A stretch of 64,000 bases of DNA from Bacteroidales bacterium (lineage in GTDB: Bacteria; Bacteroidota; Bacteroidia; Bacteroidales; UBA932). Of this stretch, positions 49,345-61,492 are shown one piece after another. The translations under genes and the position numbers were made by a program. The notes under the pieces were generated by a model. The model worked only from the letters and a program-made list of their open reading frames with translations, was not told the origin of the DNA and did no database searches. The number at the start of each line of letters is the position of its first letter. The stretch's first letter is position 1. Location of the stretch: contig JAFTMS010000019.1 in NCBI GenBank assembly GCA_017452265.1, forward strand, positions 62,001-126,000, read 5' to 3'.

Positions 49345-49971
49345 ATGCTGATAATAGGAATTGCCGGAGGATCAGGTTCCGGAAAGACAACAGTCGTAAA
49401 GGCGATAACAGAACAGCTCAAGGAGAATGTGGTCGTGATTCCGCAGGATTCATACTACAAGGACCTGAGCCATTACACCGAGGAACAGAAGAGGGTCCAC
49501 AACTTCGACCATCCCGATTCCATCGACTTCGAGCTGCTCAGAACGCAGCTCAAGGAACTGCGCGACGGCAAGGTCGTGGAGCAGCCGGTATATTCCTACA
49601 TCACATGCGGACGCTCGAAGAACGAGACCGTGACAGTGAGGCCGGCAGACGTCATCATCGTTGAAGGCATACTCATATTCACGGATCCGAAGCTCCGCAA
49701 GCTTCTGGACATCAAGATCTTCGTGGATGCGGACGATGACGACAGGCTCATGCGCGTGATGGCACGTGACATCGTCGAAAGAGGCAAGACAGTGGAATGG
49801 GTAATAGAACGATACTCTAACACAGTGAAGCCTATGTATCTCCAGTTCATCGAGCCGAGCAAGAGATATGCAGACATAATCATTCCTCAGGGCGGACATA
49901 ACAAGGTGGCCATCGACGTCATTTCAGCTACGATAGAGAAGTCGCTGGCCGGCTGCAGAAAGAACAGATGA
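49345..49971 (+). CDS. udk: uridine kinase
   Basis: 208 aa. Phosphorylates uridine and cytidine for salvage. P-loop GIAGGSGSGKTTVV (about 5-18), HNFDHPDSIDFELL with the substrate-binding FDHPxxFD, PVYSYITCGRSKNET, VEGILIF, FVDADDDDRLMRVMARDIVERGK. All in order and of standard length. The stop is followed by a single base before the next start codon (TTG). Confidence 0.95.
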   Translation: MLIIGIAGGSGSGKTTVVKAITEQLKENVVVIPQDSYYKDLSHYTEEQKRVHNFDHPDSIDFELLRTQLKELRDGKVVEQPVYSYITCGRSKNETVTVRPADVIIVEGILIFTDPKLRKLLDIKIFVDADDDDRLMRVMARDIVERGKTVEWVIERYSNTVKPMYLQFIEPSKRYADIIIPQGGHNKVAIDVISATIEKSLAGCRKNR

Positions 49972-58144: not shown

Positions 58145-58175
58145 CAAAGGTAACAAAAACTTTTATGATTAACAA
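58145..58175 (-). promoter_or_regulatory. promoter of the DUF177-rpmF-tRNA operon
   Basis: Minus strand TTG (58175-58173), 20 bases, TACCTTTG (58152-58145). Good consensus match, 27 bases before the DUF177 start; the -33 box lies in the end of typA. Confidence 0.65.
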
Positions 58176-59977
58176 TCAAAATCGGAACTTTTTCTCTTAC
58201 GCTCAATTTCATCGAGAATTATCTTTCTGATTCTCATAGACTTAGGCGTAACTTCCACAAGTTCGTCCTCCTGAATATATTCAAGCGCTTCCTCAAGCGA
58301 GAATACCACCGGCGGCGGCAGCATCACCTTGTCGTCGCTTCCCGACGCACGCATGTTGGTAAGCTTCTTCGTCTTGCAGATGTTGATGTTCAGGTCACGC
58401 TCACGGGTGTGCTCTCCCACCACCTGGCCTGCATATATCTCCACGCCCGGCTCGATGAAGAAACGTCCCCTGTCCTGCAGCTTGTCCATCGAATAAGCCA
58501 CGGAAAGTCCCGTCTCGAGCGACACGAGAGAACCGTTCGTACGACGTTCTATATCACCCTTGTAAGGCTCATATCCCTTATATCTGTGCGCCACGACGGC
58601 CTCGCCCTGGCTGGCTGTCAGAAGGTTGCTCCTGAGGCCCATGAGTCCGCGTGACGGGATGTCGAACTCGAGATGCGTCCTGTCTCCGCGCGTCTCCATA
58701 TGGATGAGCGCTCCCTTCCTGCGCGTCGAAATCTCGATTGCCTTGCCGACAAATTCTTCAGGAACATCAATCGTAAGATTCTCTATCGGCTCGCAACGCT
58801 GTCCGTTAATGGTCTTGTCCAGCACCTTAGGCTGTCCCACCTGAAGCTCGAAGCCTTCACGGCGCATCGTTTCGATGAGCACGGAAAGATGCAGCACACC
58901 ACGACCGTACACGATGAACGAATCCGCATTAGGGCCAGGCTTCACACGAAGCGCAAGGTTCTTCTCAAGCTCCTTCTCAAGACGGTCCTTGAGGTGCCTT
59001 GAAGTCACGAACTTGCCCTCACGTCCGAAGAAAGGCGAATTGTTGATGCAGAAAAGCATGCTCATCGTCGGCTCGTCCACTTCGATAGGAGGCAGAGCCT
59101 CAGGATTCTCGAAGTCCGCAACCGTATCTCCGATTTCAAAGCCCTCGAGGCCCACAACCGCACATATGTCTCCGCACTGCACCTCTTCCACCTTTGCCTT
59201 TCCGAGACCGTCGAACACCATGAGTTCCTTGATCTTCTGCTTCTGCATTATGTCGTACCTCTTGCAGAGGGTTATGTTCATGCCTGCCTTGAGCGAGCCG
59301 CGAGTCACTCTTCCCACAGCGATACGGCCCACATAAGGAGAATACTCCAAAGACGAAATCAACATCTGAGGGGTTCCCTCCGCCATTTCCGGAGCCGGAA
59401 TCTCTTCAAGAATCACATCAAGAAGAGCAGTGATATCCGTGGCCGGCTTCCTCCAGTCGAGGGACATCCAGCCCTGCTTTGCACTTCCGTAGACAGTCCT
59501 GAAATCGAGCTGCTCCTCCGTTGCGCCGAGGGTGAACATGAGGTCGAACACCTCTTCCTGAACCTCGTCCGGACGGCAGTTCAGCTTGTCCACCTTATTA
59601 ATTACAAGTACCGGCTTCTTGCCCATCTCGATGGCCTTCTGAAGCACGAAACGCGTCTGCGGCATACAGCCCTCGAATGCGTCCACGAGAAGGATCACGC
59701 CATCCGCCATGTTGAGCACACGCTCCACCTCACCACCGAAATCGCTATGGCCCGGGGTGTCGATGACATTGATTTTCACTCCTTTATATGTTACCGATAC
59801 GTTCTTCGCAAGAATTGTGATACCTCTTTCCCTTTCAAGGTCGTTATTGTCAAGGATCAGCTCTCCCAGCTTCTCCTGCTCGCGTGCCTGACGAGCCTGA
59901 TAGATCATCCTGTCGACAAGGGTTGTCTTGCCGTGGTCGACGTGCGCGATGATCGCGATGTTTCTGATATCCTGCAT
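58169..59977 (-). CDS. typA: GTP-binding protein TypA/BipA
   Basis: 602 aa. Translational GTPase involved in 50S assembly and stress growth. G1 [16 protein letters not shown] (about 9-24), G2 RERGITI, G3 DTPGHSDF, G4 NKVDK, then domain II ([20 protein letters not shown]), EF-G-like domains and the BipA C-terminal domain ([20 protein letters not shown]). Length matches E. coli BipA (607 aa). Divergent from guaA. A 7-bp hairpin (60018-60036) lies in its leader, and TAATTTTG (60055-60048) is a possible -7 element. Confidence 0.96.
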
Positions 59978-60036: not shown

Positions 60037-60129
60037 AAAAAGATTTGCAAAATTAGATATTTTTGGAAAATAATTGAAACACTTTTTATATTTTTGCGCC
60101 CGAATTTAACAACGTAAAGATTTACTTTT

Positions 60130-61437
60130 ATGAAACAGGACATGATTGTGATCCTCGACCTGGGAAGCCACGAAAACACAGTAGTGGCAAGGGCCATCCG
60201 TGCATTGGGAGTCTACAGCGAGATCTACCCGCACGACATCACAGCAGCAGAGCTCAAGGCGCTGCCGAACGTTAAAGGCGTAATCATCAACGGAGGTCCG
60301 AACAATGTCATTGACGGAGTTGCAATCGACGTTCTCCCTGAGATCTACGAAGCAGGCTATCCTGTGATGGCTGCAGGCCACGACAAGGCCCTCTGCGCAG
60401 TGAAGCTTCCGCAGTTCGCAAACGACGAGGAAGCAATCAAGGAGGCAGTGAAGGGCTTCGTGTCCGACACCTGCAAGGCAGAGGCAAACTGGAACATGAA
60501 GAATTTTGTCGCAGACCAGATCGAGCTCGTACGCAGACAGGTAGGCGACCGCAAGGTGCTTCTCGCCCTTTCAGGCGGCGTGGACAGCTCGGTGGTGGCA
60601 GCCCTTCTCCTGAAGGCGATAGGTGACAACCTCGTATGCGTGCACGTGAACCACGGCCTCATGCGCAAGGGAGAGTCCGAGAACGTAATCGAAGTATTCA
60701 AGAACCAGCTCAACGCAAACCTTATATATGTAGACGCGACAGACCGTTTCCTCGACAAGCTTGCCTCAGTCGCAGACCCTGAGCAGAAGAGGAAGATCAT
60801 CGGCGGCGAATTCATCCGCGTATTCGAGGAAGAGGCACGCAAGCTTGACGGAATCGACTTCCTCGGCCAGGGCACAATCTACCCGGACATCGTGGAAAGC
60901 GGCACGAAGACAGCCAAGATGGTGAAGTCACACCACAACGTAGGCGGCCTTCCTGAGGATCTCCAGTTCGAACTCGTGGAGCCTCTGAAGCAGCTCTTCA
61001 AGGATGAGGTACGCGCATGCGGAGTGGAGCTCGGCCTTCCATACGAGATGGTATACCGCCAGCCGTTCCCTGGCCCGGGCCTCGGAGTACGCTGCCTCGG
61101 AGCCATCACACGCGACCGTCTGCACTCTCTTCGTGAGGCCGATGCAATCCTTCGCGAGGAATTCGCAAAGGCAGGACTCGACAAGAAGGTATGGCAGTAT
61201 TTCACTGTGGTTCCGGACTTCAAGTCTGTGGGAGTACGCAACAACGCACGTTCATACGACTGGCCTGTAATCATCCGTGCAGTCAATACTGTGGACGCGA
61301 TGACAGCGACAATCGAGCAGCTCGAGTGGCCGATCCTCATGAAGATCACGGACCGCATCCTCGCTGAGGTTCCGAACGTGAACCGCGTATGCTACGATCT
61401 TTCCCCTAAGCCATCCGCTACGATTGAATGGGAATAA
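60130..61437 (+). CDS. guaA: GMP synthase with a degenerate, truncated glutaminase domain
   Basis: 435 aa versus about 515-525 in normal GuaA. The C-terminal ATP-pyrophosphatase and dimerisation parts are complete: LLALSGGVDSSVVAALL (P-loop 148-154), VHVNHGLMRKGES, GQGTIYPD, KSHHNVGGLP, PGPGLGVRCLG, YDLSPKPSATIEWE. The N-terminal amidotransferase domain starts normally (IVILDLGSHENTVVARAIRA; GVIINGGPNNV) but where GICYG with the catalytic Cys belongs it has PVMAAGHDKAL, and then about 85 residues that would carry the His and Glu are missing. The frame is intact, so this is not a simple frameshift. It should still use ammonia; glutamine use is doubtful. Terminator follows. Confidence 0.93.
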   Translation: MKQDMIVILDLGSHENTVVARAIRALGVYSEIYPHDITAAELKALPNVKGVIINGGPNNVIDGVAIDVLPEIYEAGYPVMAAGHDKALCAVKLPQFANDEEAIKEAVKGFVSDTCKAEANWNMKNFVADQIELVRRQVGDRKVLLALSGGVDSSVVAALLLKAIGDNLVCVHVNHGLMRKGESENVIEVFKNQLNANLIYVDATDRFLDKLASVADPEQKRKIIGGEFIRVFEEEARKLDGIDFLGQGTIYPDIVESGTKTAKMVKSHHNVGGLPEDLQFELVEPLKQLFKDEVRACGVELGLPYEMVYRQPFPGPGLGVRCLGAITRDRLHSLREADAILREEFAKAGLDKKVWQYFTVVPDFKSVGVRNNARSYDWPVIIRAVNTVDAMTATIEQLEWPILMKITDRILAEVPNVNRVCYDLSPKPSATIEWE

Positions 61438-61460
61438 TCTGGCTGTCAACATATTAATAA

Positions 61461-61492
61461 AAATCCGACTCAAAGCGAGCCGGATTTTTTGT
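61461..61492 (+). terminator. terminator between guaA and the M23 gene
   Basis: AAATCCGACTC pairs with CGAGCCGGATTT (one A-C mismatch), followed by six T. Serves guaA and, read the other way, the convergent peptidase gene. Confidence 0.85.

Follow-up and report, generated by a model that had tools for sequence, protein, structure and literature searches.

A GMP synthase (GMPS) that has lost half of its glutamine amidotransferase (GATase) domain, GuaA2, is encoded in the 64,000-nucleotide stretch of Bacteroidales DNA analyzed here (the window), and comparison with relatives and with whole genomes indicates that it is very probably an ammonia-dependent GMP synthase, i.e., an XMP aminase. By sequence, the residues of the synthetase half are intact, no GuaA glutaminase accompanies the protein, and IMP dehydrogenase (IMPDH) was found over cut-off in 25 of the 27 genomes of the genus that carry the truncated form. 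With distinctly less assurance, we lean toward a wider reading: a gut Bacteroidales lineage would have moved nucleotide synthesis off glutamine at GuaA, CarA and CTP synthase, making GMP and carbamoyl phosphate from free ammonia, with GuaA2, older than the lineage itself, retained alongside the glutamine enzyme in two phyla, and with the half-GATase now serving as a new module (a cap, interface or sensor) marked by the motifs GSHENT and GHDKALC. In what follows, the truncated form of GuaA to which GuaA2 of the window belongs is called type A, and the product of a normal guaA is called GuaA1.

The gene guaA2 occupies positions 60130..61437 of the forward strand, including the stop codon, and its open reading frame and profile matches describe a protein of 435 aa. 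The first-pass annotation had claimed a complete ATP-pyrophosphatase (ATPPase) and dimerisation half, and the profiles bear this out: TIGR00884, for the C-terminal part of GuaA, matched residues 125–435 with 455.6 bits (cut-off 338.75), and PF00958 (GMP_synt_C) matched with 127.5 bits over positions 1–92 of 92. The ATPPase domain takes up residues 123–342 (60496..61155, + strand), with the PP-loop SGGVDS at 60571..60588 (+) in invariant alignment columns, and is followed by the dimerisation and XMP-binding C-terminal domain, residues 343–435 (61156..61434, +). In the GATase half, TIGR00888, the model for the N-terminal GATase of GuaA, scored 49.6 bits versus a cut-off of 172.15 and covered model positions 1–75 of 188, and the PF00117 match spans only positions 1–76 of 190. 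Alignment to E. coli GuaA (1gpm), whose chain is 90 residues longer, resolved into two blocks, pairing residues 5–93 with 9–96 and residues 83–435 with 170–525. In what we take to be the residue numbering of the E. coli catalytic triad (Cys86 and its partners), Gly83 of GuaA2 lies opposite Cys86; the His of the E. coli HPE stretch lies opposite a gap, and the Glu lies opposite Gln95. A complete class I GATase domain with a Cys-His-Glu triad is absent from GuaA2, as judged by TIGR00888 and the 1gpm alignment. The loss of the nucleophile motif, the loss of the segment with the catalytic His and Glu, and the absence of about 85 residues relative to the E. coli enzyme had all been proposed, and this alignment agrees with each. 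The GATase half had also been described as cut to about 110 residues, of which the truncation stands but the length does not: true GATase homology stops near residue 82, leaving a remnant (residues 1–82; 60130..60375, +) that takes in the opening half of the class I domain as far as the nucleophile strand by PF00117, TIGR00888 and the 1gpm alignment; after it, about 40 residues form a variable linker. This deletion junction and linker (residues 83–122; 60376..60495, +) places Gly83 where the catalytic Cys would be, followed by the family motif GHDKALC.

The divergent neighbor of guaA2 is bipA/typA (58169..59977, – strand; TIGR01394, 893.8 bits), a neighbor common to 22 of 80 type A loci, the best 80 of at least 584. 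Upstream of guaA2, TATTTTTG at 60089..60096 (+) is a tentative candidate for a Bacteroidales-type –7 promoter box, spotted with the consensus that we take to be TAnnTTTG; in the 4.3-kb sequence L084 this box has three matches versus 0.94 expected, a number reached by 9 of 200 shuffles. Inspection by eye placed a hairpin with a T-run, a candidate intrinsic terminator, 3′ of the stop codon (61460..61491, +). The Rfam scan of the window returned only a tRNA and no known RNA element near guaA2.

A scan of species genomes gave at least 584 relatives of GuaA2, and all of the best 80, which were kept, match its residues 1–435 at 89–95% identity; many of the source records of these 80 loci name herbivore caecum, colon or rectum. 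With the window included, 74 sequences are 435 aa in length and seven are 436 aa, the latter being left out of column counts. Mean pairwise identity was 0.918 for the remnant, 0.793 for the linker, 0.926 for the ATPPase domain and 0.906 for the C-terminal part, and the median dN/dS was 0.031, 0.082, 0.041 and 0.049, respectively, from 1062, 715, 1276 and 1767 usable pairs of 2701, in which synonymous sites are largely saturated. The GATase remnant is about as conserved as the ATPPase domain, and these values indicate that type A is under strong purifying selection. The proposal that GuaA2 is a maintained form, not decay, is upheld by the recurrence of the same architecture at the 80 other loci (best 80 of at least 584) and by the purifying selection on the remnant. 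A pseudogene or an assembly artefact could be suspected, the genome being a draft and incomplete; the count of loci and the dN/dS values refute both, leaving them next to no probability.

Among the 74 equal-length type A sequences, D253, E256, K266, H268 and H269 in the ATPPase domain and R419, K427 and E433 in the C-terminal domain are invariant. By our own motif mapping, these correspond to D371, E374, K386, H388, H389, R539, K547 and E553 of Plasmodium falciparum GMPS (PfGMPS), residues whose roles are taken from the excerpted text of a 2023 review (PMC10526850). In the remnant, an N-terminal motif reads GSHENT in type A versus GSQTTQ in two full-length enzymes aligned, and at the junction Gly83 and Cys89 are present in 74/74 and His84 in 72/74. 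Despite its invariance, we judged Cys89 unlikely to be a replacement nucleophile, the Subdoligranulum copy having no Cys at this place and the His and Glu being missing.

To place GuaA2 among the GMPS genes of its relatives, we surveyed genomes of the genus and of the order; these sets overlap, and related genomes are not independent. In the window's genome, 84.5% complete at 2.56 Mb, there is a single PF00958 match, which extends to the assembly the earlier statement that no other GuaA lies in the window, and two PF00117 matches only, CarA (TIGR01368) and guaA2. A GMPS match was found in 278 of 300 genomes of the genus, with type A in 27, and in 24 of these 27 it is the single GMPS match (E up to 1e-25); in G007 and G218 the further match proved to be an N-terminal piece of type A at 88% identity, and that in G092 was read likewise. 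GuaA-type GATase (TIGR00888, E up to 1e-25) was detected in 205 of the 300 genomes and, over the cut-off, in none of the 27 with type A, a count that answers the earlier call for a search for a second full-length guaA or a free GATase and rules out a second guaA hidden in the missing part of the window's genome. Across the genus, genomes with GMPS but no GATase number at most 73 of 278, some presumably through fragmentation, since the 95 genomes without GATase include 22 without a GMPS match (20 named and two by elimination); the 118 high-quality genomes have GMPS in 115 and GATase in 104. In the order-wide sample of 392 genomes, GMPS was found in 376 and GATase in 370. GMPS without GATase occurred there in G000, G441, G583 and G584 (type A), in G497 (type B, an ATPPase-only form described below) and in G416 (type not resolved), and G441, G583 and G584, from other families, are 99, 99 and 96% complete. 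Type A occurs together with a second GMPS in four more genomes of this sample, G394, G409, G480 and G562. Twelve genomes reached through their loci, completeness not given, comprise four with normal GuaA plus type A and eight with type A only. As to the two genomes of the 27 without IMPDH over cut-off, G164 has a partial gene at a contig edge and G335 (74% complete) no real match. Since IMPDH is present, XMP is made in these lineages, and something must aminate it.

The first-pass annotation had left the nitrogen source as free ammonia or a separate glutaminase, and dependence on one or the other fits the sequence data. A glutaminase subunit supplied from elsewhere, either in a two-subunit arrangement as in archaea, where GMPS is split into two genes according to the review excerpt (PMC10526850), or borrowed from CarA or HisH, could use the conserved remnant as a docking surface, and G173, G239 and G221, all of them type A, have an intact HisH with GIC and FHPE motifs. 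Against this, no TIGR00888 match exceeds the cut-off in the 27 type A genomes or in G441, G583 and G584, and the sub-cut-off matches have other identities: those in G173, G239, G221 and G583 and one in G441 are HisH, a 64-bit match in G123 is a CarA fragment, and for a 592-aa frame in G441 the nearest assignment is gamma-glutamyl-GABA hydrolase. The only other class I GATase found in the window's genome, CarA (L002 1453-2565; TIGR01368, 337.5 bits), reads GIGLG versus the GIC-G motif and FDPQ versus FHPE, and has lost Cys, His and Glu. Linkage of type A with bipA is limited to the minority of loci given above, and the tandem guaA1 genes at six of the best 80 loci (of at least 584) are the only linked GMPS-related genes seen. 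On the class I enzymes covered, we regard a dedicated partner as unlikely because no GuaA-type GATase was found, CarA is dead where examined, and guaA2 has its own candidate promoter box and terminator.

The state of CarA extends beyond the window's genome. In all 11 other type A genomes fetched (L218-L228), Gly replaces the Cys, and Asn, Ser, Ala or Thr replaces the His, so that both residues are missing from the CarA glutaminase of all 12 type A genomes examined, out of 27; these 11 were chosen among genomes already matching in the profile search. CarA is also without its Cys in G208, which carries the ATPPase-only type C, and in G176, which carries type B. The CarA motifs are intact in 7/7 genomes with normal GuaA, comprising three of the same genus (G290, G265, G174) and four tandem genomes (G061, G062, G063, G065); against the pattern, CarA is intact in G123, a type C genome. 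For CTP synthase (PF06418), 184 of the genus's 300 genomes gave a match, 22 of the 118 high-quality ones did not, and the count among those with type A was 0/27; it is present in the type A genomes G441, G583 and G584. The window holds a uridine kinase gene (49345-49971; TIGR00235). The intact HisH of G173, G239 and G221 indicates that the loss concerns nucleotide enzymes and not all use of glutamine; total loss of glutamine use was rejected on this ground, and glutamine is probably still hydrolyzed somewhere in these lineages.

Normal guaA lies directly upstream of guaA2 at six of the 80 type A loci (L007, L037, L048, L053, L063, L075; best 80 of at least 584), a count affected by loci that end upstream at a contig edge, and Bacteroides clarus, B. 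fluxus and B. cutis are among the species concerned. The same tandem was found in Parabacteroides distasonis (NZ_OY725764.1; L216 3429-6308), the one annotated tandem looked at, where both copies carry the annotation 'glutamine-hydrolyzing' and the second is the truncated form. It was found also in Subdoligranulum variabile, of the class Clostridia, where an EF-Tu-like gene, recognized by eye, precedes it and the 214-kb record bears the label plasmid. This order, together with the conserved remnant and the finding that, among 36 pairs of tandem loci, the two GuaA2 proteins resemble each other more closely than the two GuaA1 proteins do in 33 (equally in one, less in two; L200, L135 and L136, whose GuaA1 was not extracted, were left out), could favor a truncated protein that serves normal GuaA as a regulator or heterodimer subunit and is itself no enzyme. 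We consider this quite improbable, given that lineages with GuaA2 alone, near-complete genomes included, have no GuaA1 yet keep IMPDH, and that the catalytic residues tested are conserved in 74/74.

ATPPase-only relatives of the window protein take two forms: type B, of 325–328 aa and 66–76% identical to it (14 sequences, two from other families), and type C, of 319 aa and 52–53% identical (six sequences). Type B adjoins guaB in 6/6 genomes tested (G176, G253, G093, G189, G230, G074) and lies away from it in two loci of other families (L205, L206) and where it stands behind guaA1; type C adjoins guaB in five of six genomes, the exception being G208. A split, two-gene GMPS in these types was rejected, with 10 of 11 genomes having no TIGR00888 match over the cut-off and the match in the eleventh, G253, coming from the opening portion of a guaA that a contig edge interrupts. 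The IMPDH beside the ATPPase-only GMPS of G123 (L195 4625-5752) comprises the catalytic domain and no CBS domains, its counterpart in G023 includes them, and in G230, G074 and G093 the IMPDH appears as similar split model matches. The association of ATPPase-only relatives with guaB bears on a further alternative, in which GuaA2 aminates another substrate and guanine comes by salvage. Paralogues can switch substrate, and nucleotide metabolism is unusual here, none of the genus's 27 type A genomes having yielded a CTP synthase; the alternative is nonetheless very improbable in view of this association, the occurrence of IMPDH, the TIGR00884 score above the equivalog cut-off and the conserved C-terminal residues.

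To trace the history of the family, we built a midpoint-rooted maximum-likelihood tree from the synthetase part, for which the full-length and type A sets were reduced by roughly half. The Subdoligranulum copy and types A and B grouped together (87), adjacent to a Lactobacillaceae GuaA (100), which is also the best full-length match of the remnant in the tree set (44.9%). Within this group, type B joined the Subdoligranulum copy (99), and support for a type A clade was weak, at 67 in this tree and 0.11 in FastTree; type C fell with Bacteroidales full-length enzymes (100). In that FastTree, which included no Firmicutes sequences, the full-length protein closest to type A was L139. This protein, from G673 of the Bacteroidales order, is a full-length GuaA that groups with S. 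variabile GuaA and not with those of other Bacteroidales. Plasmid-borne Firmicutes GuaA, among the matches listed, is 59–63% identical to the ATPPase part of GuaA2, and Bacteroidales full-length GuaA is 41–53% identical to the window protein over the aligned part. Two genomes of the same genus (L203, L204) have a full-length guaA next to bipA, at the place that guaA2 takes in the window; for L203, RidA and YceD are confirmed as in the window. GuaA2 does not look like a recent truncation of the lineage's own GuaA; it belongs to a separate GuaA lineage, found also in tandem behind normal guaA. We read these relationships as at least two glutaminase losses, one of them in a gene of Firmicutes-type descent, the direction of transfer being inferred. 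An origin in phages or plasmids was rejected: the plasmid matches listed, save H1-H3, align in two pieces over about 1.5 kb, like full-length guaA, and the phage matches listed are of the full-length-guaA kind or fragments. Integrase genes lie near guaA in S. variabile (L215 8413-9489, by eye) and L. curvatus (L217 4063-5277, annotated), and a table in PMC5704250 names the 3′ end of guaA among the integration sites of mobile elements.

For the preferred ammonia-dependent enzyme, we propose that the ATPPase domain would adenylate XMP with ATP and that free NH3 from solution would attack the adenyl-XMP intermediate, with no glutamine hydrolysis or channelling; the lineage would then supply both pyrimidine and guanine synthesis with free ammonia. 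GuaA2 would descend from a Firmicutes-type GuaA and would have arisen as a second, ammonia-using isozyme beside normal GuaA, the normal copy being lost later. Escherichia coli AsnA beside AsnB offers a parallel for an ammonia-using isozyme. The contents of the rumen and hindgut are rich in ammonia. In the excerpted kinetic data of the review (PMC10526850), the isolated ATPPase subunit of Methanocaldococcus jannaschii turns over NH4+ at 1.91 per second versus 1.94 for the complex with glutamine, with a Km for NH4+ of 4.1 mM at 70°C. The Km values given there for other GMPSs, 10.8 mM in P. falciparum, 26 mM in Mycobacterium tuberculosis, 103 mM in E. coli and 174 mM in human, are high and form the main argument against the ammonia reading. 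The conservation of the remnant, with its invariant Cys89, also counts against it, as do the intact HisH of G173, G239 and G221, the intact CarA of G123 and the lack of a real IMPDH match in G335. As a guess, the remnant might sit on the synthetase domain as a fixed cap or interface. The lid residue E374 of PfGMPS contacts His20 of the GATase domain, as a passage of the same review describes (PMC10526850), and His20 maps, by our own mapping, to the altered GSHENT motif, which makes such a role plausible.

Bacterial GMP synthase is regarded as glutamine-dependent and fused to its glutaminase, a picture from which type A departs. Table 1 of PMC3376133 records guaA with a fused glutaminase in 100% of cases and none without in 730 genomes; the excerpted review text recognizes two-domain and two-subunit GMPS and states that every GMPS studied prefers glutamine as its physiological substrate (PMC10526850). 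Among open PMC papers, judged by titles and abstract openings, we found no description of a bacterial GMPS without a glutaminase and no biochemistry of type A, most subscription journals being outside this scope. In an earlier study, mutants of B. thetaiotaomicron BT_4265, a 'GMP synthase' that may be either tandem copy, were under-represented in vitro and in vivo, according to an excerpt (PMC4380924). If the ammonia reading is correct, a sole GMPS without a glutaminase, together with a dead CarA, would tie nucleotide synthesis directly to gut ammonia, and GuaA2 should escape glutamine-site inhibitors. Type A is also a natural system for asking what the glutaminase half does for the synthetase half.

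Compared with the two-domain GuaA of E. coli (1gpm), GuaA2 shares full-length ATPPase and dimerisation domains in the same order, but is without half of the GATase domain and the Cys-His-Glu triad. Vertebrate carbamoyl phosphate synthetase I uses ammonia and has kept its glutaminase fold after loss of the nucleophile Cys. It parallels the CarA seen here; however, it is a different enzyme, and GuaA2 has suffered a deletion and not a point change. The archaeal two-subunit GMPS (6jp9, 2dpl) is, like GuaA2, a synthetase without a fused active glutaminase, and its ATPPase subunit uses NH4+ in vitro, according to the review excerpt (PMC10526850). Unlike that enzyme, GuaA2 keeps an attached GATase half-domain, and no stand-alone GuaA-type GATase gene was found in the 27 type A genomes or in G441, G583 and G584. 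The single-domain, ammonia-dependent NadE, as presented in the excerpt of PMC3376133, acts on a different substrate, but like GMPS it is an N-type ATP pyrophosphatase amidotransferase, and it is known in both a glutamine and an ammonia form.
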